NCBI RefSeq assembly: GCF_029210485.1
Contig: NZ_JARGET010000029.1
Location: 248,001 to 312,000 of the forward strand
Length of the DNA: 64,000 nt
Origin: Hoeflea sp. YIM 152468
GTDB lineage: Bacteria; Pseudomonadota; Alphaproteobacteria; Rhizobiales; Rhizobiaceae
Direction: 5' to 3'
In this document: one piece after another, positions 2,648-13,692 of the stretch
Layout of the letters: every line of letters begins with the position of its first letter
How positions within the stretch are numbered: position 1 is the stretch's first letter
The notes under the pieces: model-generated
Database searches by the model: none
What the model saw: only the letters and a program-made list of their open reading frames with translations
What the model was told of the DNA's origin: nothing
Translations under genes and position numbers: made by a program

Positions 2648-3769
2648 TCACCGATCCAGGATAGCGCGGATCTCCACCAGATTTGAGCGGAACCTGAGCA
2701 CGTAGAAGCCCATGGTGGCCAAATGCGTCGGCATGATCCAGCCGCTCTCATTGCCGTTGGAAATCACCATCGGCTGTATCTTCAGCGCCGCCGACAATTG
2801 CATGTCCATATCGTCCCAAAGCTGGCTCAGATTGCGTTGTGCAACCACGTCGCGGAAATCCTCCCGTGTGGCCTTGAGAATTCCGTAATAGCCGTAGAGC
2901 TGACCATAGGAAAACCAGAACCTGTCGTCAGCCCGGGTGTCAAACCAGCCGGAATTGTAGTGCTCCGAGCGATCCCGAAGAATGGCGGACGTCGATCCGA
3001 CATCCGATGCGATGCGGTCGATAAACTGGACAAGATTGTCCGTGCGCGCATCATAGACGGCGTCGCACCCGGCCAGACGCGTGTTGAACGCCTGCAGATC
3101 GTCGATGGCCGAGCGATAAAACGATGGCGTCGGTGTTTTCGGCCCGAACGGGCTTACGCCAAGATACCAGGTGTATTCGTCAAACTGCATGGCGCCGCGC
3201 GCATCCTGCAGGTCGCCATCGACCTGACTGGTGCCGCGCACCCGGCCAAGCGTATCGACAAACTCGACCGTGGTCCGGCGGATCGCCTGGTTCACACCGC
3301 GTTGAAACGCCGCCTTGTTGTCAAAAAACGGCGTATGATCCCAATCAACGCCGAACAACCCGACCTTGTAGAGGATCATCGAGGAAATCCAGGCATTCTG
3401 GTTGACGTTGAAATCGATCAGATCCGAGGTCACCGACACCATCGCCGATGGCGCGCAGGTGTCATCGGCGAGCTTGGCTCCCGGAGTCGCTGCAAACATT
3501 TCGCGCTTGCCCGGATATTCCGGATCGAACCCTGACCAGGCCTGGGTCTGCCAGAAAAAATAGCCGTAGAGCCCGAGAAAAATCAGAACGATGCCGCCGA
3601 CGATGGCCTTGAGGATGAAGCCGCGGCGCCGATACCAGCCCGCGACGGTGACGAACGGCCAAAGCACGACCGCCATCACCATGCCGACGCCCCTGCCGAT
3701 GGCATTGAAGATGCGCTCGAAAAAAGCAATCACCGGGTCAAGCATCGTCTTGGTATCCTTCCAGTCCAT
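2648..3769 (-). CDS. DUF2333 family membrane-anchored protein, last gene of the five-gene operon
   Basis: The 373-residue protein resembles the DUF2333 family, whose function is not established. The N-terminus has a hydrophobic stretch at about 26-45 and a clear membrane segment at about 53-73 (ILKAIVGGIVLIFLGLYGYF) preceded by basic YRRR. The remaining 300 residues are therefore predicted to be periplasmic. It starts inside the previous gene (32-base overlap), so the two are translationally coupled. An alternative ATG at 3745 would reduce the overlap to 8 bases. It is the only clear membrane protein of the operon and so its likely membrane anchor. Confidence 0.85.
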   Translation of the reverse strand: MDWKDTKTMLDPVIAFFERIFNAIGRGVGMVMAVVLWPFVTVAGWYRRRGFILKAIVGGIVLIFLGLYGYFFWQTQAWSGFDPEYPGKREMFAATPGAKLADDTCAPSAMVSVTSDLIDFNVNQNAWISSMILYKVGLFGVDWDHTPFFDNKAAFQRGVNQAIRRTTVEFVDTLGRVRGTSQVDGDLQDARGAMQFDEYTWYLGVSPFGPKTPTPSFYRSAIDDLQAFNTRLAGCDAVYDARTDNLVQFIDRIASDVGSTSAILRDRSEHYNSGWFDTRADDRFWFSYGQLYGYYGILKATREDFRDVVAQRNLSQLWDDMDMQLSAALKIQPMVISNGNESGWIMPTHLATMGFYVLRFRSNLVEIRAILDR

Positions 3770-5039
3770 ACAATCGCGACCTCAGCGCCGCCTTGTTATT
3801 GAGATAGGTGGTCCCGAGTACATCCACAACATGAGCCCGGTAGCTTTCGGAATAGTCTTCATAGGCTGTATAGAAGCCCTGCTTGTCAAAGACAAAGCGG
3901 CTCAGAAAATCGAATGGCGCCAGCCGCGCCAGCAGCCGGTTGATGAGCCATTGGTCCGGATGGTCGGGAACCGCCCGGCACAGCAGCAACCGCCGGTCGG
4001 CCCGGATCTCGCTCATCTTGATTTGACCGGTGGAGGCCACTTCCCGCATGGCTTCCTGCAGGAACGGATACACACCTTCCTCGGCAATCAGCGCCGCATT
4101 GCGGTGCATCCAGGTTTGCAGCCACACCCTGTCGGTCCCGGCAAGGTCGACGGCAGGATCAACCCGGCGAATGAGATCGTCCACCGCCATTTCGGCGCGA
4201 TGGGCGAAGAACCCGGACGGCTCCACCCACGACGCCCGCGGCAATTGCAGCCGTCCCGATTTCGACAGATAGTCAAAAATCCGGGTTCTGTCAGCGATGT
4301 CGATATAGCTGACTTCCCACGGACGCGACCGTTTGAACCCCGGCGCATGACTGTCACAGATCACCGTGGTGGTGCGCTCGTCGCGGAAAATGAACACCCC
4401 GCCGAAATGATTGGCCCAATAGGACTTTTGCGAAAACACCAGCTTGTCCGGCACCAGAGCATTTTGTCTGATGTCGCCGGTCTCGCGCGACAGCTCGACC
4501 ATGCGGTTGAGCAGATCATCGTCACGCCAGCCGTTTTTCGAGGTCTGGAGCCGATCAATCAGGGCGCGCAGTTCGGCCGCTTTTCCGAGCATGTTTTCCG
4601 CCGACATCACCCGGAAACGGACCTCGTCGATCGACAGCAGATCCTCGACGCCGGTGACCACCTCGATCGGGTCTTCGATCTCGCCAAACAGCGCGTCCTT
4701 GATCGTCACTGCATGCACCGCGCGGCGATTTCCGTCGAAGAATTCGTGCATCAGTCCGGCGGTGTTGGAAAACTGGGTGTGGACCACCGGCAGGTTTTCC
4801 TGTTCCGGCGTCAGGATGACAAAGCGGCGATTGACGCCATTGGGGTCGAGATACTGGATATCACCAAGATCTTCGGCAATTTCAGGCGAGAACCCGGTCA
4901 TGTCGATACGAAATGCGGCGCGCGCGGTTTGCGGCAGCCCGAAAGCCTTCAGCGCCTTGTTGTAGCGCGCGATGAGGTGCGGCTGATCAATCGCAAGCAG
5001 CCGGCCGAAAATCAGCTCATTGTCGACAAGTCGCTTCAT
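3738..5039 (-). CDS. DUF6638-like protein of unknown function, fourth gene of the five-gene operon
   Basis: The 433-residue protein has no signal peptide, membrane segment or recognisable catalytic motif. It resembles the alphaproteobacterial family labelled DUF6638, by overall sequence character rather than a diagnostic motif. Its ATG overlaps the stop codon of the AAA+ ATPase gene by four bases (ATGA), and its own end overlaps the DUF2333 gene by 32 bases. Such coupling usually goes with subunits of one complex, which is the main clue to its role. Confidence 0.75.
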   Translation of the reverse strand: MKRLVDNELIFGRLLAIDQPHLIARYNKALKAFGLPQTARAAFRIDMTGFSPEIAEDLGDIQYLDPNGVNRRFVILTPEQENLPVVHTQFSNTAGLMHEFFDGNRRAVHAVTIKDALFGEIEDPIEVVTGVEDLLSIDEVRFRVMSAENMLGKAAELRALIDRLQTSKNGWRDDDLLNRMVELSRETGDIRQNALVPDKLVFSQKSYWANHFGGVFIFRDERTTTVICDSHAPGFKRSRPWEVSYIDIADRTRIFDYLSKSGRLQLPRASWVEPSGFFAHRAEMAVDDLIRRVDPAVDLAGTDRVWLQTWMHRNAALIAEEGVYPFLQEAMREVASTGQIKMSEIRADRRLLLCRAVPDHPDQWLINRLLARLAPFDFLSRFVFDKQGFYTAYEDYSESYRAHVVDVLGTTYLNNKAALRSRLYGLEGYQDDA

Positions 5040-6952
5040 GGCTGCCAGCGCCCGTCCCGCTTCAGGGTCTCGATGTCGCGGATGGCCCGCTCGCGTTGCC
5101 GTTCACGCCGGATGATGTCGTCCACAGCGGATGCATCCGAGCGGTCGGTGTAGCGGAATTCGGAATCGGCGTAACGGTTGATTTCCTGCAGCACCATTTC
5201 AATCGTGAACGGTTTGCGCAGCTCCGAGATCATCGCGATCTTGTCGTCATAGGGCTTGTGCATGAACGCTTCGGGGGTCTCGAACCACGCGTCGGGAAGG
5301 TCGATATCCATGGCCCGCATCTTGATGGCGTCGGTGATGTTCTTGATCGCCCGGCCGGTAAAGCGCGGCTCGGCCAGCTTGATCCGGTGCAGATAGGCGC
5401 CGATGTCCGCAATGGTTTTAACCTTGCCGTGCTCTTTCTCGAACCGCTCCCAGACCGAAAGCAACCCCTCTTCCTGCGGCCGGTCATGCCCGTCATAGGA
5501 TCGCGCCACCGCCTGCTTGATTTCCTGGCTGGCAAACAGATCATGCTGCCCCAGCGGGATCGAATGGTTCTTGCCCGCCAGCAACGCAAAGATATCGATG
5601 TAATCATCCAGCGATTGCGGCCCATCGACCAGCCAGCGGGCACCGGCGCGTTGCCTCAGCGCATCGTCGACATTTTCGGGATAGTTGGAAAACATGCCGA
5701 AGCTGCAATTGCCGCGCACCACCGTGGAGGCGCCGGCGAAACTCTCCATCAGCACGGCGGTAACTTCCTGCTGTCCGGCCGATGCCCGGTCATCCGAGCG
5801 CTTGGCGGCAACCTGATCGATGTCGTCAATGGTGCCGAAACCGATGGCCCGCGGGTTGAGCACATTGTCGACGAAGGCTTTGCAGTTCTGGCCCGATTTG
5901 CCCTGATAGGACGAAATCTGGTCGACGCCGAAATTCTCGTAGTGGAACGGGTAGCCCGCAATCTCGCAATACTCATTGATCAGGCCCGCCAGCATCTGGA
6001 TCAGGATGGTCTTGCCGGTTCCCGGCGCACCGTCGCCGATGAAGGTGAACAGGAAGCCGCCGAGTTCGACAAACGGATTGAGCTGCCGGTCGAAATCATA
6101 GGCCATCACCATGCGCGACAACCGCATCGCCTGGTGCTTGGCCAGATGGTTGCCGATGATCTCGCCCGGCTTCTTGAAGCTCATCACCAGCGGCTTGCGG
6201 CGCTGCCCCGGCGCCACATCGAAACCATCGAGGGTGAAATTGTCGCTCTCGAGCCGCAGATGTGACTGGGCAAAGGCGCTCAGCGCGTCAAACCGGCCGC
6301 GCCGGCTGATCAGCCCTTCGATCGCCTCGCGCGCCAGGGCCCGCGCCCGGGAAATCATCGCGATCTCGTCCGGCGCTCCGGCAATCGCCTGATCAAGCGC
6401 TGCGATGATCGACTTGAGCGCATCCTGCGGCGTATCAAACTGAAAATCCGGCTCCTTGGTGTCGTTGGCCGGTTCACTTTCGCCATCAACCGTCTGCAGG
6501 ATATAGGCCGCAAGCGTGAACGCCGCCACATAGGCCGAAGCCGAAAGCAGGCGCTTGAACCGTTCGGCCTCCACGCCCTGCAACGGAGCGCCGGCATTGC
6601 GGGATTGCAGGCTTTCCAGATCTGTCTGCCGGGCAAACATTTCCGCCACCGCGAGCGCCACCGAAATTCCGCGGCGGGTGCGAAACAACAGCGTGTGCTG
6701 CGGGATCGACAGCATCGGGTCATTGGCGCGGACAGCCTGGATGGTCTGGCCCAGCTCAACCTCACGCGTCTGGCGCATGCCCCGGGTTGAGACCGTGGAA
6801 ACAAACCGCCGGTTGGTGCCGGCCAGCGGCGTCGTGGAACCGCCTTCCTGCGCCACCATCACCACAACGCGGCTCACCATCGACTGCGCCACCGCCTGAT
6901 GCCGGGCGATGTCTTCCTCGGAAATCGTCGTCAATCCCGTCGACTGGCTCAT
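5036..6952 (-). CDS. AAA+ ATPase, motor candidate of the five-gene operon
   Basis: This is a 638-residue soluble protein with one C-terminal AAA+ module. The Walker A motif GDGAPGTGKT is at 306-315 and a Walker B-like GFGTIDDID at 371-379. A sensor-1 / arginine-finger-like stretch around SNYPENVDDALRQR lies at 422-435. The N-terminal 250 residues match nothing I recognise. The open frame extends upstream to 7141, but I chose the ATG at 6952: it lies four bases after the upstream stop and starts a credible N-terminus (MSQSTGLTTISEED). The module probably remodels or moves a partner encoded alongside. Confidence 0.9.
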   Translation of the reverse strand: MSQSTGLTTISEEDIARHQAVAQSMVSRVVVMVAQEGGSTTPLAGTNRRFVSTVSTRGMRQTREVELGQTIQAVRANDPMLSIPQHTLLFRTRRGISVALAVAEMFARQTDLESLQSRNAGAPLQGVEAERFKRLLSASAYVAAFTLAAYILQTVDGESEPANDTKEPDFQFDTPQDALKSIIAALDQAIAGAPDEIAMISRARALAREAIEGLISRRGRFDALSAFAQSHLRLESDNFTLDGFDVAPGQRRKPLVMSFKKPGEIIGNHLAKHQAMRLSRMVMAYDFDRQLNPFVELGGFLFTFIGDGAPGTGKTILIQMLAGLINEYCEIAGYPFHYENFGVDQISSYQGKSGQNCKAFVDNVLNPRAIGFGTIDDIDQVAAKRSDDRASAGQQEVTAVLMESFAGASTVVRGNCSFGMFSNYPENVDDALRQRAGARWLVDGPQSLDDYIDIFALLAGKNHSIPLGQHDLFASQEIKQAVARSYDGHDRPQEEGLLSVWERFEKEHGKVKTIADIGAYLHRIKLAEPRFTGRAIKNITDAIKMRAMDIDLPDAWFETPEAFMHKPYDDKIAMISELRKPFTIEMVLQEINRYADSEFRYTDRSDASAVDDIIRRERQRERAIRDIETLKRDGRWQP

Positions 6953-6956
6953 GCGC

Positions 6957-8102
6957 TTAGACCTCGCTGATGACTTGATTGCCCGACACCACATGCACCG
7001 TAAAGCCCGAGAAGATGCTCTCGGCCTCGCCGGATGCATAAAGCGCCTGATAGGCGTCGTGCGGCACCAGCGCGTGCTTCTGATAGGCGCTGACGCCCTG
7101 TCGTGCCGCTTCCAGATCGTCGGTTTCGATATGATACACATCCCGCGCCGGCACCGAATTCCACAGCCCCCGCCTGGCCGGGCTTTCCGCCTTGGAAAAG
7201 ACTTCCTGCAGGGTCCAGGTCAGAAGCCAGGCGTTCTCGTCCTTGCGGACCTTCGACAGGATGGTCGAGATCCGGTCACTGTTGTCGGTCACGCCGGACG
7301 AGTAGAACGGGCCGAGCACGAAACGCCGCAATTGCTTGGGGTGCAGATGTTCGAAATCAGCATCCATGTTCTGGGCAATTGTGGCGGGCGACAGCGAATA
7401 GGCGCCGTTCTTTTCCGCGAACACATCAAAGCCGCGGGCGAATTCGGGGTTGAGCAGGCCGCCGACCGGCAGCGGGATTTCCAGATCCGGCTTGAGCTTG
7501 CGATCTGGTCCCACCAGCATCTTGGCAATGGCTTCGCTCGAATCCTCGATCGTTGCCATATAGACCATGGGCAGCGTCTGGCTGCCGTCAAAAACACCCC
7601 AGTGAACCACATAGAATGGCCGGCCGTTCTTCGGATTGACGGAAACGCGGATCGTTTCGGGCAGAATGAAGGGGGCAAACACCGCGTCCTTGCCAATGTC
7701 TTCCAGATAGAGCCGCTCGGCAATTTGCGCCTGCAACGCGCTGGGAAACTGCTTGTGGCGCAGGATGAAGTCGGCCATCTCCGCCTTCAGCGTCTCGACA
7801 TCGGCGATCGCCGCCAACCGCTCGTCCGCACTCGCCCGGTCATTTTCCAGCGTCAGCACATTCTGAAACATCGGAAAGCCGCTGTCCGCCCGGCTGATCC
7901 TGAACCGGTCGAGAAAGCCGACGCGGTTTTCCCAGGCCGAAAACGTTGCTTCCAGCCGGTCGACATAGGGAATGATCACCTGTCCGATCAGGCCATGGGC
8001 GTAGAGCGGTGAATTGGCGTCGGCCAGGTAGACACGCAAGCCTTTCAAGGCCGCATGCATCGACCTGAAATAGGCTCCGGCCGCGCCGGTGTCAGCGCGC
8101 AT
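6957..8102 (-). CDS. Conserved hypothetical protein, second gene of the five-gene operon
   Basis: The 381-residue protein has no recognisable domain, signal peptide or membrane helix. The first 150 residues look mostly helical and charged; the middle contains beta-like segments (RPFYVVHWGVFDG, LPMVYMATIED). The ATG at 8102 is preceded by a strong GGGGGGA ribosome-binding site. Its stop lies four bases before the AAA+ start, so the two proteins are likely made together. I do not assign a function. Confidence 0.8.
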   Translation of the reverse strand: MRADTGAAGAYFRSMHAALKGLRVYLADANSPLYAHGLIGQVIIPYVDRLEATFSAWENRVGFLDRFRISRADSGFPMFQNVLTLENDRASADERLAAIADVETLKAEMADFILRHKQFPSALQAQIAERLYLEDIGKDAVFAPFILPETIRVSVNPKNGRPFYVVHWGVFDGSQTLPMVYMATIEDSSEAIAKMLVGPDRKLKPDLEIPLPVGGLLNPEFARGFDVFAEKNGAYSLSPATIAQNMDADFEHLHPKQLRRFVLGPFYSSGVTDNSDRISTILSKVRKDENAWLLTWTLQEVFSKAESPARRGLWNSVPARDVYHIETDDLEAARQGVSAYQKHALVPHDAYQALYASGEAESIFSGFTVHVVSGNQVISEV

Positions 8103-8131
8103 GACAATCCCCCCGCGTCACCATGCCGGGC

Positions 8132-9220
8132 TCAGGGTTGCACGTAGTTGGCGGAATTGTGCTTCTCCAGCACCTCGGAGAAGCGCCGGGCGAAGGCATC
8201 GTCGGCCAGTTGCTTGCGGCGCTGGATGTCCTTGGTCGACAACATGTTCTTCTCGTGCATTTCCAGAAGGTCGCCGATATGGGTCTGCGCTGCGGCGCCA
8301 ATGCCGGCCATGGTTTCTTCTGCCGCGGTATCGACGCGGCTGCCAAGCGTGTTGATCTTGTGGGCGACATCCTGCTGCGCCGCGGTTTTCAGCGAGTCTT
8401 CAAGCGCCTTGTAAAGAACGATGCGCTGTTCGGTATCGATGGTCAGCTTGTTGATCAGCGTGTTCTGTGCCGCGATCTGATTGTTGAGCGAATCCACAAA
8501 TGTCTGGAACATCGAGGTGTAGCGCTCGAGCGTCTGGCTCTCGGCCAGCAGCTCCTGTTCTTTGGCCTGCCGTTCATTGTATTCGGTGGCAAGCTTGGAG
8601 CGGTCGCTCTCAAGGTCGGTGCGGGTTTTCTGGTCGGTGGACGCCGCAATTTGATTTTCGATGTCCATCAGCTGCGGATTGAGCTCGACGATCCGCTGTT
8701 GCGTGGCCTCGAGATTGGCCATCGTCACCTTGCGGCGCTCGATGACCTTGATCAGGCTGGCCTCGGAAGTCTTGTAGCGGCTGTCGAGAATGTCCTTCTG
8801 GTCTTTCAGGATGCTGGTGATGGTGTCGGATTTCTTCAGCAGTTCCTGAAGGTTGCCCGACAACGACATGTTGCGGACGCGATCGCTGCGCATGCGCTGC
8901 GCCCGCCCCTTGGAAAAAATCGCCACGAAGCTTTCCATACCGGAAAACCCCTTCATGCTTTCGAATTCGGCTCCGAAAACATTGGTCGCATCTTCCAGCC
9001 CGATGATCAGATCGGCGATGTTGGTTTCCATCATCCGCTGCTGGCGCAGCACATCCTGGATCCGGGCATTTTCGATGTCGAATTGCGGATCGCCAAGTTC
9101 CGCGTCGGCTTCTGACAGCTTCTCGAGCACACTCCCGGAAGCCTCGATCTTGGTTCGCATTTCCTCGACAACGGATCGGGTTTTTTCGATTTCCGCGTCC
9201 AAACTCTTGATATTCGCCAT
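8132..9220 (-). CDS. Long coiled-coil protein, first gene of the five-gene operon
   Basis: The 362-residue protein is almost entirely charged helix with heptad-like spacing (for example AEIEKTRSVVEEMRTKIEAS and LESDRSKLATEYNERQAKEQ). Its C-terminal third (LTIDTEQRIVLYKALEDSLK) is faintly reminiscent of TelA-type proteins, but I do not claim homology. I chose the ATG at 9220 because GGGGAAG sits six bases before it; an upstream ATG at 9235 lacks a site. No signal peptide is seen. Rod or scaffold proteins of this kind often pair with AAA+ motors. Confidence 0.85.
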   Translation of the reverse strand: MANIKSLDAEIEKTRSVVEEMRTKIEASGSVLEKLSEADAELGDPQFDIENARIQDVLRQQRMMETNIADLIIGLEDATNVFGAEFESMKGFSGMESFVAIFSKGRAQRMRSDRVRNMSLSGNLQELLKKSDTITSILKDQKDILDSRYKTSEASLIKVIERRKVTMANLEATQQRIVELNPQLMDIENQIAASTDQKTRTDLESDRSKLATEYNERQAKEQELLAESQTLERYTSMFQTFVDSLNNQIAAQNTLINKLTIDTEQRIVLYKALEDSLKTAAQQDVAHKINTLGSRVDTAAEETMAGIGAAAQTHIGDLLEMHEKNMLSTKDIQRRKQLADDAFARRFSEVLEKHNSANYVQP

Positions 9221-9362
9221 GCCCGGCTTCCCCATTGTGCTGCGCCAAAAAACCAGCGCGACCCTTATTGATCGTAAGTAGAAATTCCTCAGATGCTTTT
9301 AGCACCGGATAGTCGTGCCGCAAACCTCAAGCCAGAAACAGGTAGGTACAATAACGGCGAAA

Positions 9363-9393
9363 AAAAAGGCTGCTCTCGAAGGAACAGCCTTTC
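9363..9393 (-). terminator. Rho-independent terminator after the cytochrome c gene
   Basis: On the minus strand AAAGGCTG pairs with CAGCCTTT across a 12-base loop and runs into a T tract (the A run at 9361-9367 on the plus strand). It lies 25 bases past the cytochrome c stop codon. Confidence 0.85.
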
Positions 9394-9417
9394 AATGCGA
9401 ATTATTGTTGACCGGCT

Positions 9418-9816
9418 TTACTCGGCCGCGGCCGGGTCTGTCATATACGCGATGACATTCTCGACTTCATCATCCTTCTTGAGCCCGGCGAAGGCCATCT
9501 TGGTGCCCTTGACCACGCCTCTCGGGCTGCGCAGGTAGGCTTCCAGCGCCTCGACGGTCCATGTTGGAACCTCGGTAGCATATTCGCTCATCGCCTTTGA
9601 ATATTTGTAGCCTTCGACCGAGGCGATCGGACGGTCGATGATATCCACCAGATGCGGGCCAACCTTGTTCTTGGCTTCCACTGCGGTATGGCAGGCGGCG
9701 CATTTCTTGAAAACCTTGGCGCCTTTGGCGGCATCGCCGTCAGCAAGGGCTGCGGTGGGAACAGAAACGGCCGCCGCAATAACGGCCCCAAACAGCATGG
9801 ATAGGGAAATACGCAT
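9418..9816 (-). CDS. Class I c-type cytochrome, periplasmic (c2/c550-like)
   Basis: The 132-residue protein has a signal peptide ending near TAALA, the haem-binding motif CAACH at 39-43, and a probable axial methionine at 107 in GTKMAF. The size and layout fit a soluble class I cytochrome c that carries electrons between membrane complexes in the periplasm. I chose the ATG at 9816, six bases after GGAG; an in-frame TTG at 9834 would only add residues before the signal peptide. It is monocistronic with its own terminator. Confidence 0.9.
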   Translation of the reverse strand: MRISLSMLFGAVIAAAVSVPTAALADGDAAKGAKVFKKCAACHTAVEAKNKVGPHLVDIIDRPIASVEGYKYSKAMSEYATEVPTWTVEALEAYLRSPRGVVKGTKMAFAGLKKDDEVENVIAYMTDPAAAE

Positions 9817-9954
9817 AAATGACTCCGTTCGCAATTGCAGATAAGCATGGTTATAACGCGCACTGCTGCGAGATCAATCTCGCTGCGACCGCTGCGCAAG
9901 TGTCAACTGGCCGCTCTTCGTCAAAACAAACCCGGCCAGGGCACATCGATCCCG

Positions 9955-10545
9955 CTATTCAGCCGCTCCCGGGCTCATCACGTCGTCCCAGTGACGGCGA
10001 CAATACGACACATATTTCTCGTTGCCTCCGACTTCGACCTGAGCGCCTTCGCGGATGACGTCGCCCTGATCATCCATGCGCACAACCATGGTCGCCTTGC
10101 GTCCGCAATGGCAGATGGTGCGAACTTCCCGCAATTCATCGGCAATGGCGAGCAGGGTCTGGGAACCAGGAAACAGCTGTCCGCGAAAATCGGTGCGCAA
10201 GCCATAGGTCATCACCGGAATTGACAGACGATCGGCGACGCGTGCCAATTGCCACACCTGAGCCTCGGTGAGAAACTGCGCCTCGTCGACGAAGGCGCAG
10301 GCGATTTCGCCTTCGGCTTGCAGCGTTTCGAAAATCGAGAACAAATCATCTTCGCGACGGAAGGTGTGGGCCTCGCAATCCAGTCCGATCCGCGAGGCAA
10401 CGCGTCCCGCCCCGCCACGATCATCGAAGGCGGCGATGAACAGCACCGTGCGCATGCCGCGTTCGCGGTAATTGTACGACGCCTGCAGCAAAAGCGTCGA
10501 CTTGCCCGCATTCATTGTCGAATAACTGAAATACAGCTTGGCCAA
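9955..10545 (-). CDS. tdk: Thymidine kinase
   Basis: The 196-residue enzyme phosphorylates thymidine to dTMP in the salvage pathway. Visible features are the P-loop STMNAGKS near the N-terminus, the Walker-B-like FVDEAQF motif, the lasso-type TYGLRTDF segment, and the zinc ligands C-H-C and C-R-R-H in the C-terminal half (TICHCGRKA, SYCRRHW). Length matches type II bacterial thymidine kinases. Other nucleobase genes lie elsewhere in the window, but this one is not in an operon with them. Confidence 0.95.
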   Translation of the reverse strand: MAKLYFSYSTMNAGKSTLLLQASYNYRERGMRTVLFIAAFDDRGGAGRVASRIGLDCEAHTFRREDDLFSIFETLQAEGEIACAFVDEAQFLTEAQVWQLARVADRLSIPVMTYGLRTDFRGQLFPGSQTLLAIADELREVRTICHCGRKATMVVRMDDQGDVIREGAQVEVGGNEKYVSYCRRHWDDVMSPGAAE

Positions 10546-10783
10546 GGTGACCCCCTTAATGCCCGGTGTTCCCGCGAGCCCGGATCAAGGCCGCAACCGC
10601 CAGCGTGGCGTTTCAGGCTGCCGGTATGATCCTTACTGCCAACTGCCGGTGCCAAACTCCACCCCTGCCCCGCTGCTTTCAACAGCCGTTTTGGCCTGCG
10701 CTCCGAATTTTGAACGCATGGCGGGTTGAGTTCATTGCCCAGAGGTGGTTGTTTCTTCGATCGGAACACGGGAGATACCGACT

Positions 10784-11713
10784 ATGATAAAAAAACTGAC
10801 TCTTACATTTGCCGCCATTCTGCTCGCAGGAACCGCAACAACCCACGCAGCAGACGCGGAAGCGTGCAAGACCATTCGCTTTGCCGATGTCGGCTGGACC
10901 GACATTCAGGCCACCACAGCCGTCACCGGTGTCGTGGTTGAAGCCCTGGGCTACACGCAGGAGGTGCAGGTGCTCAGCGTGCCGGTCACCTATCAGTCAC
11001 TCAAGAACAAGGACATGGATGTCTTCCTCGGCAACTGGATGCCGTCGATGGCCGCCGATGTGCAGCCTTTCCTTGATGACGGCTCGGTTGAGACCGTTGC
11101 CAAGAACCTTGATGGCGCCGGCTACGGCCTGGTCGTGCCGACCTATGCCGCGGAAGGCGGGGTCAAGAGCCTTGCTGATATCGGCAAGTTCAAGGACAAG
11201 TTCGACGGCAAGATCTACGGCATTGAACCGGGCAACGACGGCAACCGCATCGTGCTGGAAATGATCGAAGATCCGGCCAATGGCCTGGACGGCTTCGAGC
11301 TGGTTGAAAGCTCGGAAGCCGGCATGCTGTCGCAGGCGGAAAAGGCGATCCGGAACGAGGAATGGATCGCATTTCTCGGCTGGACCCCGCATCCGATCAT
11401 GGGCGAGATGTCGATCGCATACCTTGATGGCATGGGCGATTCCGGCTTTGGCGCAGCCACCGTGCACACCAATGTGCGCGCCGGCTTCACCGACGAGTGC
11501 CCCAATGCAGGAACCCTGATCAAGAACCTGTCCTTCACGCTGTCGATGGAAAACAAGATCATGGACGACATCCTCAAGGGTGAAGACGCCGACGCCGCAG
11601 GTCTGGCCTGGTTGAAGGCCAATCCGGATGCGGTCAAGCCCTGGCTTGAAGGCGTGACAACTTTCGACGGCGGCGATGCTGCCGCGGCTGTCGCTGCCAA
11701 GCTCGGCATGTAA
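10784..11713 (+). CDS. choX: Choline ABC transporter substrate-binding protein ChoX
   Basis: The 309-residue periplasmic protein binds choline for the ChoXWV importer. The signal peptide ends near THA-ADAEA. Family features include the DVGWTDI start of the mature chain, the FLGNWMPSM segment and FLGWTPHPIM, all typical of glycine-betaine/choline receptors with aromatic cages. The ATG at 10784 follows GGGAGA by eight bases; an upstream in-frame GTG at 10745 is less plausible. choW and choV follow. Confidence 0.93.
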   Translation: MIKKLTLTFAAILLAGTATTHAADAEACKTIRFADVGWTDIQATTAVTGVVVEALGYTQEVQVLSVPVTYQSLKNKDMDVFLGNWMPSMAADVQPFLDDGSVETVAKNLDGAGYGLVVPTYAAEGGVKSLADIGKFKDKFDGKIYGIEPGNDGNRIVLEMIEDPANGLDGFELVESSEAGMLSQAEKAIRNEEWIAFLGWTPHPIMGEMSIAYLDGMGDSGFGAATVHTNVRAGFTDECPNAGTLIKNLSFTLSMENKIMDDILKGEDADAAGLAWLKANPDAVKPWLEGVTTFDGGDAAAAVAAKLGM

Positions 11714-11724
11714 TAAAGACACAA

Positions 11725-11756
11725 CGGTCCGGGGCTGCCAAAGCCGCCCCGGACCG
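11725..11756 (+). other. Intercistronic stem-loop between choX and choW
   Basis: An 11-bp perfect stem (CGGTCCGGGGC with its complement) encloses a 10-base loop, 11 bases after the choX stop. No T run follows, so it is more likely a 3' mRNA stabiliser or partial attenuator that keeps the binding protein in excess than a full terminator. Confidence 0.7.
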
Positions 11757-11779
11757 AATTGTGCGTCGGGGGACAAGTC

Positions 11780-12634
11780 ATGGACGGCATCACGGACATC
11801 ATCACGGCCTGGAAAATTCCGGTCGGAAAGTGGGGCAAGAGCTTCTTCAACTTCCTCACCGACAATTTCGAGTTCGCTTTCGATTCCATCGCCGACTCGC
11901 TCAAGTTCCTGCTCGACAGCATGATTGACGGGCTTTTGTGGTTGCCGTCGCTGGCCCTGGTTCTGGTGGTTGCGCTGATCGGCTGGCGCATTCAGAAATC
12001 CTGGAAACTGGCGCTCGGCATTGTTCTCGGACTGGTGTTCATCATCAATCAGGGACTCTGGAAGGAAACCGTCGAAACCCTCGTGCTGGTGATTTCGGCA
12101 GCCTTCATGTCCATGCTCATCGGCGTGCCGATCGGCATCTGGCTGGCGCACCGGCCCAAGCTTTACACCTATGTGCAACCGGTGCTCGATCTGATGCAGA
12201 CGATGCCGACCTTCGTCTATCTGATCCCGGTGCTCATCCTTTTCGGTCTCGGCCTTGCTCCAGGCCTGCTGGTCACGATCATCTTCGCCTCCCCGGCCCC
12301 GATCCGGTTGACCTATCTGGGCATCACATCGGTCCCAAGACCAATGGTCGAGGCCGGAATGGCCTTTGGCGCCTCGCCGCAGCAATTGTTGCGAAAGGTC
12401 GAACTGCCCGCCGCCCTGCCAACCATCATGGCGGGTCTCACCCAATGCATCATGCTGTCACTGTCGATGGTCGTCATCGCCGCCCTGATCGGCGCAAACG
12501 GGCTTGGCAAGCCAGTGGTGCGCGCACTCAACACGGTCAACATTCCGCTCGGGCTTGAAGCCGGCATTGCCATTGTCATTCTCGCCATCATTCTGGACCG
12601 CATCTGCCGGGTACGCATCGGAGCCACATCATGA
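11780..12634 (+). CDS. choW: Choline ABC transporter permease ChoW
   Basis: The 284-residue inner-membrane permease belongs to the ProW family. An N-terminal cytoplasmic stretch precedes several transmembrane helices beginning around WLPSLALVLVVALIGW. The EAA loop is seen in EAGMAFGASPQQLLRKVELPAALPTIMAGL. The ATG at 11780 follows GGGGGA; an in-frame GTG at 11759 lies inside that upstream stretch. The stop overlaps the choV start by four bases. Confidence 0.93.
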   Translation: MDGITDIITAWKIPVGKWGKSFFNFLTDNFEFAFDSIADSLKFLLDSMIDGLLWLPSLALVLVVALIGWRIQKSWKLALGIVLGLVFIINQGLWKETVETLVLVISAAFMSMLIGVPIGIWLAHRPKLYTYVQPVLDLMQTMPTFVYLIPVLILFGLGLAPGLLVTIIFASPAPIRLTYLGITSVPRPMVEAGMAFGASPQQLLRKVELPAALPTIMAGLTQCIMLSLSMVVIAALIGANGLGKPVVRALNTVNIPLGLEAGIAIVILAIILDRICRVRIGATS

Positions 12635-13692
12635 GTCTGGATGCTGATCGCGGCTCGGTCCGCATTGACAATGTCTCCATCATCTTCGGCGACAACACCG
12701 CCGAGAGCCTGGCGCTTGCCGACGCCGGCAAGTCACGCACCGAGATCCAGGAGGAGACCGGCGACGTTCTCGGCGTGCACAATTGCACAGTCGATATCAA
12801 TGAAGGCGAAATCCTGGTGCTGATGGGACTGTCGGGGTCAGGCAAATCCACGCTTCTGCGCGCCGTCAACCGCCTCAACCCGATCAGCCGCGGCACACTC
12901 ATCGTCGAATGCGGTGACGAGACATTTGATGTCGGAGCCTGCGACGACAGACTGCTCAAGCAACTGCGCATGGACACCGTGTCGATGGTGTTTCAGCAGT
13001 TTGGCCTGCTGCCCTGGCGGTCCGTCGCCGACAATGTCGGCTTCGGCCTGGAAATTTCCGGCGTTCCCCGGAAGGAACGCGACCAGCGGGTGAAGGAACA
13101 ACTGGCGCTTGTCGGCCTGTCCGACTGGTCGGAGCGGATGGTTGCGGAACTGTCTGGCGGCATGCAACAGCGGGTCGGCCTGGCCCGCGCCTTCGCCACC
13201 GGCGCACCGATCCTGCTGATGGACGAGCCGTTCTCCGCGCTTGACCCCTTGATCCGAACCCGGCTGCAGGATGAGCTGCTTGAACTCCAGTCACGGCTTG
13301 GCAAAACCATTGTCTTCGTCAGCCATGACCTTGATGAGGCCATGAAACTCGGCAACCGGATTGCCATCATGGAAGGCGGCCGCATCATCCAGTGCGGCAC
13401 CCCGCGCGAAATCGTCAATTCGCCGACCAATGAATATGTCGCCGATTTCGTCGCCAACATGAACCCGATCGCCATGCTGACGGCGCGCGATGTCATGACC
13501 CCCGGCAAACCCGATGCATCGCGCGGCCAATCGCCGCTGTCGGCTTCGGTCACACCCGATACGCCGTTGTCCGACGTGATGGATGCGTTGACCAAGCGAA
13601 ACGGGACAATTGGCGTGATTGACAAGGGCGTGGTGACAGGTTCCATCACTGCCGACGATATTGTCCGGGGCCTGACGCGGCACCACCGCTGA
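12631..13692 (+). CDS. choV: Choline ABC transporter ATP-binding protein ChoV
   Basis: The 353-residue ATPase energises choline uptake. It has Walker A GLSGSGKST, the signature LSGGMQQRVGLARA, Walker B ILLMDEPFSALDP and the switch histidine in VSHDLDEA. A C-terminal CBS-type segment (RDVMTP onward to ADDIVRGL) is typical of the ProV/OpuAA/ChoV group. It overlaps choW by ATGA and ends the operon. Confidence 0.93.
   Translation: MSLDADRGSVRIDNVSIIFGDNTAESLALADAGKSRTEIQEETGDVLGVHNCTVDINEGEILVLMGLSGSGKSTLLRAVNRLNPISRGTLIVECGDETFDVGACDDRLLKQLRMDTVSMVFQQFGLLPWRSVADNVGFGLEISGVPRKERDQRVKEQLALVGLSDWSERMVAELSGGMQQRVGLARAFATGAPILLMDEPFSALDPLIRTRLQDELLELQSRLGKTIVFVSHDLDEAMKLGNRIAIMEGGRIIQCGTPREIVNSPTNEYVADFVANMNPIAMLTARDVMTPGKPDASRGQSPLSASVTPDTPLSDVMDALTKRNGTIGVIDKGVVTGSITADDIVRGLTRHHR

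Follow-up and report, generated by a model that had tools for sequence, protein, structure and literature searches.

Do five adjacent genes in the alphaproteobacterium Hoeflea sp. YIM 152468 belong together, and if so, what might their products do? The genes lie in a 64,000-nucleotide stretch of contig NZ_JARGET010000029.1 (positions 248,001 to 312,000; hereafter the window) from a 4.27 Mb genome. They form five open reading frames (ORFs) on the minus strand, between 9220 and 2648, in the order CC, G2, AAA+, DUF6638 and DUF2333, where CC and G2 are our labels for the first two products. A sequence-only reading had proposed that they encode a complex of fixed stoichiometry with a coiled-coil rod, an AAA+ motor and a membrane-anchored protein. 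We find that the cassette is genuine and widely shared, an AAA+ module whose inner-membrane partner can be exchanged. With a probability of about 0.5, we favour the interpretation that its AAA+ protein is a substrate-threading remodeller in the cytosol, for which CC, G2 and DUF6638 serve as substrate or adaptors, and that the exchangeable anchor holds it at the inner membrane.

A profile survey of 123 loci (the window and 122 others, many from close relatives) found the order CC-G2-AAA-DUF6638 in every locus, as far as contigs extend, so the genes are grouped beyond chance. One membrane gene accompanies the four core genes in 116 loci, DUF2333 in 97 and DUF1523 in 19; the two are found together in none of the 123. 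Eleven of the 19 DUF1523 loci have an extra gene for a small protein with two transmembrane helices and eight do not. The core stands without a membrane gene in four loci, two from Vibrio and two (L068 and L191) whose contigs measure 5.2 and 6.5 kb, and three loci are cut at contig ends. Among 397 genomes of the same order, AAA+ occurs in 46 and DUF6638 in 47. The AAA+ count includes one genome with only a 39-residue piece (G514) and two with split pieces (G495 and G552). Separation of the genes in other genomes would have spoken against the sequence-only reading, but it was not found in the survey or in these counts: all 46 AAA+ genomes are DUF6638 genomes, and the single extra DUF6638 copy runs off the end of its contig, which is 3,170 bases long and carries DUF2333 as well. 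In a sample of the class, 18 of 385 genomes gave an AAA+ match at E 0.001, of which 7 were near-full-length (our own included) and 11 were weak matches to other proteins. CC, G2, AAA+ and DUF6638 are one evolutionary unit. The expected conserved cassette is real, but it consists of four core genes and a membrane gene that can be exchanged rather than of five fixed genes.

In the window, CC (8132..9220; 362 residues from an ATG at 9220) is followed by G2 (6957..8102; a soluble protein of 381 residues), AAA+ (5036..6952), DUF6638 (3738..5039; 433 residues, with no transmembrane candidate) and DUF2333. The longest DUF2333 ORF (373 residues) begins at 3769, and residue 9 (window 3745) aligns to Met in 96 of 101 sequences. 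We place the start at this conserved Met (2648..3745), so the overlap with DUF6638 is 8 bases. The gaps of 29 and 4 bases and the overlap of 4 bases reported earlier stand, but the 32-base overlap does not; it probably came from the upstream ATG of DUF2333. The AAA (PF00004; 42.7 bits, cut-off 21.2), DUF6638 (PF20343; 258 bits, cut-off 27) and DUF2333 (PF10095; 67.4 bits, cut-off 22) matches all exceed the curated Pfam cut-offs, which confirms the last two assignments, both to families of unknown function. CC and G2 have no Pfam family above cut-off. As had been claimed, no recognisable nuclease or toxin appears among the five products in Pfam, further profile and PADLOC scans.

A fixed stoichiometric complex, suggested by the close spacing in the window, is not borne out elsewhere: more than 250 bases separate AAA+ from DUF6638 in 41 of 77 named loci. 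This boundary resembles an insertion hotspot (L121, L054, L056, L087, L089, L093, L099, L118, L128, L130 and L132). The genes found there include a DUF559-like gene in 11 loci by sequence motif, one of them confirmed by Pfam, as well as a PIN-domain gene (L069), a helix-turn-helix antitoxin-like gene (L074) and an insertion sequence element (L148).

The AAA+ protein (638 residues) is of the classical AAA type. Its relatives in Hoeflea strains or assemblies are 76–90% identical, and one alphaproteobacterial assembly reaches 93%. Walker A (GAPGTGKT, residues 308–315; 6008..6031) keeps PGTGKT in all 123 aligned AAA+ sequences, those from Vibrio included. Pore loop 1 (YQG, residues 349–351; 5900..5908) is also present in 123/123, and in a phmmer alignment it stands opposite YVG of i-AAA protease, YIG of PAN and YLG of Rpt2. 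An aromatic-X-Gly pore loop is a mark of substrate-threading AAA motors. Asn423 and Arg433, Arg435 and Arg439 are invariant in the same set; going by the AAA family, we take the first to be sensor-1 and the others to be arginine fingers. In sequence, these elements are those of an active classical AAA motor.

Walker A matches the classical GxxGxGKT pattern. In Walker B the canonical hhhhDE pattern is not matched: the motif ends in Asp376-Asp377 (5822..5827) in 123/123, and Asp377 aligns with the Glu of i-AAA protease, PAN and Rpt2, replacing the usual catalytic residue. Asp at this position is unusual and suggests slow or regulated hydrolysis. Because the protein is above the Pfam family cut-off and keeps its other elements, we call it a divergent classical AAA, whose ATPase activity may or may not be normal. 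That i-AAA protease, PAN and Rpt2 are its nearest solved relatives by sequence would suit an unfoldase of the FtsH, PAN or 26S-base kind, which feeds a protease. We consider such a role very unlikely, as the five products contain no peptidase domain; a C-terminal protease-docking tail was not among the features sought.

The proposed membrane link is supported by the membrane gene that adjoins the core in the 116 loci. DUF2333 has one strong transmembrane candidate by hydropathy (residues 50–68; 3566..3622), in keeping with the single pass described earlier, but also a weaker one at residues 24–42. Its only two cysteines (C105 and C235) are invariant in 101 of 101 aligned sequences, which fits a predicted periplasmic disulfide. 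The two DUF1523 proteins analysed for hydropathy have two transmembrane candidates each, and the DUF2333 and DUF1523 profiles show no similarity to each other.

The anchor and the core also occur apart. DUF2333 was found in 47 of 200 genomes of the phylum; at least 8 of the 47 also carry the AAA+ gene. Fourteen DUF2333 loci were fetched from other genomes: 12 had none of the other six modelled families nearby and 2 had a diverged CC only. DUF2333 relatives at L211–L214 have no adjoining cassette genes; at L211 and L212 a tryptophanyl-tRNA synthetase-like ORF lies near DUF2333 (by eye). Conversely, plasmid pRlX5 of Rhizobium leguminosarum has all four core genes (L237, about 5434–11194) but no DUF2333 or DUF1523 gene in the 17.8 kb analysed, which makes core and anchor separable.

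In a Vibrio-rooted tree of 51 AAA+ proteins, the 30 DUF2333-type rows fall on one side of a branch with a Shimodaira–Hasegawa-like approximate likelihood ratio (SH-aLRT) support of 81. The other side holds the 19 DUF1523-type rows and L191, whose contig has no membrane gene. Membrane type changes once on this tree, against 16.5 times in shuffles. Pairwise-distance correlations among cassette members are 0.68–0.96, values inflated by shared species history. The cassette appears to be transferred as a unit, because all five proteins of one genome from another class of the phylum (G814) have the same locus (L049) as nearest row, and because two genomes under one genus code (G398 and G444) belong to different AAA+ types. 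The Vibrio relatives (38–39% identity) lie on replicons of ~0.9 Mb and have the core four in identical order. At both Vibrio loci (L149 and L150, on these secondary replicons) the core lies directly upstream of an mfd gene.

Transfer as a unit, a patchy distribution (the 46 of 397 same-order genomes) and copies on large plasmids are also features of a cassette for defence against phages or mobile elements. The DUF559, PIN-domain and antitoxin-like genes inserted within the cassette point the same way, as does a weak match of the motor to a TRIP13 model (E 2.6e-4). None of the five proteins has a convincing PADLOC match, however, and no effector is present. We scanned 133 flanking ORFs from 24 loci (of 143 selected; 6 from L112, 3 from L194 and 1 from L193 were omitted). 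At E 1e-10 these gave five mad3 matches and one match each to six other models, counts that have no control flanks and are not a rate. Most of the 80 named loci have housekeeping neighbours in common, and no cassette relative was found in the phage records and viral contigs searched. On balance, a defence role seems improbable.

What the core acts on is suggested by genomes that lack the motor. In seven of ten motor-less genomes searched in the same family we found a diverged CC (CC'), followed directly by a full-length DUF2333 in all seven. Beside the CC'-DUF2333 pair lie choX-like and thymidine kinase genes in 7/7 and an fhs-like gene in 5/7. Because these genes also flank most of the 80 named full cassettes, the pair occupies the site of a cassette from which the middle genes are missing. 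CC residues 287–294 are absent from all seven CC' proteins in the alignment, and from at least six of the seven by script. The CC' gaps (window CC numbering) span 273–294, 274–298 or 287–308, inside or beside the best-conserved CC stretch. For G407 and G741 the CC' start was placed at an internal Met, and these lengths are unreliable. On this pattern, CC and DUF2333 would form a pair even where the motor is missing, and the lost CC element would serve the motor.

CC itself is soluble and probably helical, with no predicted membrane helix. It is 35–81% identical to 21 aligned relatives and 38% identical in Vibrio. Mean conservation is 82% over residues 256–291 compared to 61% overall; this stretch is contained in the element 256–294 (8339..8455). 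The length of 362 residues given earlier is right, but the coiled-coil rod is weakly supported: heptad periodicity reaches z = 1.3 against shuffles, and the matches to SMC-type proteins are all weak.

A helical partner as the first gene, next to a classical AAA motor with a pore loop, also suggests a polymer. Under this alternative, the motor disassembles a membrane-bound helical CC polymer at the inner face, nucleated by the anchor, as in Vps4/ESCRT-III or PspA-type scaffold remodelling. The frequency of the membrane protein and the loss of the CC element where the motor is lost agree with it. Against it, Pfam scans of CC proteins gave no PspA or ESCRT-III match, and CC combines the absence of a membrane helix with the weak heptad signal. 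We regard a CC polymer of this kind as rather unlikely, if still worth considering.

The toxic-anion idea of the sequence-only reading would make the cassette a tellurite stress system with CC as a relative of TelA (PF05816), which CC resembles in its size and helical composition. TelA and AAA+ occur together in eight genomes (G451, G486, G516, G022, G154, G252, G331 and G814). The proposed kinship was rejected: of five settings, four give CC-TelA profile scores that do not rise above those of reversed controls, and the fifth gives a score that is not significant. Scores were 15.5 by default (controls 16.0 and 15.8), 48.4 uncorrected (52.8 and 47.9) and 4.8 in global mode (4.1 and 3.7; P 0.38). 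CC proteins have no TelA match in Pfam scans, TelA was above cut-off in none of 61 same-order genomes, many of them with the cassette, and the window genome has no match. A tellurite role is highly improbable.

The G2 structure predicted by AlphaFold2 from 67 of 78 sequences (window included) has a predicted local distance difference test score (pLDDT) of 86 and a predicted template modelling score (pTM) of 0.86. Foldseek found nothing for this model at E 0.001, a search of BFVD found nothing at the same threshold, and a PDB profile search with G2 gave no match up to E 10. The top VIA neighbours are urate oxidase (Z 5.5), dihydroneopterin aldolase (4.8), GTP cyclohydrolase IB (4.7) and a QueF-like enzyme (4.0), all of which we take to be tunnelling-fold (T-fold) families. 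The resemblance lies in residues 145–307 (7182..7670), where the modelled element order fits the beta-beta-alpha-alpha-beta-beta T-fold. All VIA Z values are below 6, a level that is common, and proteins of unrelated fold score up to 4.4 against the helical part; the T-fold likeness is a weak lead.

For DUF6638, the AlphaFold2 model (66 of 79 sequences, window included) has a pLDDT of 73 and is poor between about residues 67 and 204. A fold search gave no match of length (best VIA Z 6.2 over ~51 residues), and the PDB profile search gave one chance match at E 1. Comparison of the G2 and DUF6638 profiles showed no relation.

The G2 neighbours and Asp377 together allow a different division of labour, in which the AAA+ ring is a nucleotide-gated clamp or assembly scaffold and G2 and DUF6638 do the work, for example on a nucleotide- or pterin-like ligand. 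The highest-ranked structural neighbours of G2 are the T-fold families, and Asp takes the place of the catalytic Glu in every sequence. The low Z values and the empty Foldseek search count against this explanation, as does the invariant aromatic pore loop, which a pure clamp would not need. We think it unlikely.

Returning to the threading remodeller, we consider it likeliest that the motor uses ATP to remodel CC, or a client bound to CC, at the inner membrane. By analogy with its family, the AAA+ protein would form a ring and pull polypeptide through its pore. CC would be the substrate or scaffold on which the motor acts, and G2 and DUF6638 would be adaptors. The C-terminal CC element 256–294 may be the handle for the motor, because CC' and DUF2333 persist in the motor-less lineages but CC' is missing residues in or beside it. 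The membrane protein would fasten the CC assembly to the inner membrane; in the periplasm it may act through its disulfide-stabilised domain. As for the biological role, our guess is envelope upkeep under some condition.

Several observations weigh against this interpretation. The complex, the threading and the ATPase activity are all predicted from sequence, and the Asp in Walker B of every AAA+ sequence could mark a switch rather than a pulling motor. The heptad signal of CC is weak. The borders of the CC' gaps differ between genera and may be a choice of the alignment, and the Agrobacterium-like CC' pair also lacks about 172–230. The lost CC element amounts to one or a few observations, since the seven CC' proteins may share one loss event, and the CC' remnant fits plain decay as well. 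Tight gene coupling is not universal, given the AAA+-DUF6638 spacing. Support for the DUF2333 branch is modest (its SH-aLRT value carries no star), and the branch leading to the Vibrio root is very long. Not every cassette may be anchored, because at neither Vibrio locus does a membrane gene adjoin the core on the same strand; the ORFs of membrane type found nearby are at least 3 kb away on the opposite strand.

A broader proposal, which we put forward tentatively and hold to be possible, is that the cassette represents a new class of envelope machine. Such a machine would have a four-protein AAA+ core that can pass between bacterial classes, interchangeable inner-membrane modules (DUF2333, or DUF1523 alone or together with the two-helix protein) and a CC scaffold remodelled via its C-terminal handle, and loss of the motor would leave a frozen CC'-DUF2333 scaffold.

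Beyond the cassette, the window contains a cytochrome c-like gene (9418–9834), a thymidine kinase-like gene (9955–10545; 77% match to its Sinorhizobium counterpart) and choline/glycine-betaine ABC transporter-like genes (10745–13692; choX 56% match to Sinorhizobium). The housekeeping neighbours shared by the 80 named loci are choX-like (70), fhs-like (69) and thymidine kinase (64) genes. Among 42 diverse loci inspected by eye, the commonest flanking cluster is ABC transporter ATPase-like (11/42). The next clusters (7–8 of 42) are choline transporter, thymidine kinase and fhs-like, as at the Rhizobiaceae-type place. Upstream regions of 31 sequences, also compared by eye, had no motif common across lineages.

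The earlier description of the cassette as uncharacterised holds: every partner is a DUF or unnamed protein, and our literature searches returned nothing in print on the cassette and none on DUF6638. At least two classes of proteobacteria maintain the cassette as a single unit, and it is present in tractable hosts such as Sinorhizobium meliloti. The natural anchor swap and the motor-less remnants are ready-made experiments on how an AAA+ motor acts at the inner membrane. The S. meliloti cassette may include SMc02733, a guess from cho gene numbers that supports nothing here; SMc02733 appears as a fragment in a ChvI DNA-binding screen (PMC3687685). A DUF2333 gene at the hcp3 locus of Pseudomonas fluorescens is described as uncharacterised (PMC5256989).

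One comparison is with the 19 cassettes that carry DUF1523 (PF07509). These have the identical four core genes in identical order and differ in having an unrelated membrane protein for DUF2333 and, in 11 of 19, the two-helix small protein. The DUF2333 family differs from the cassette in that it also occurs without the core. TelA proteins resemble CC in size and helical character but not in profile. CBASS (cyclic-oligonucleotide-based antiphage signalling systems) with TRIP13 and HORMA differ from the cassette, which has no HORMA or CD-NTase partners; PADLOC analysis of the five proteins gives the weak TRIP13 match only. Vps4/ESCRT-III and PspA-type systems likewise bring an AAA motor together with a helical protein and a membrane, with no family relation found to the cassette. 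Compared with the classical AAA unfoldases (FtsH/i-AAA, PAN and 26S Rpt), the cassette has no protease domain found, and similarity to solved chains is at most 26 bits. The cassette AAA+ protein has in common with them Walker A, the sensor-1 Asn, the arginine fingers and the position of the aromatic-X-Gly pore loop, and differs in its own long N-terminal region and its Asp-Asp Walker B.

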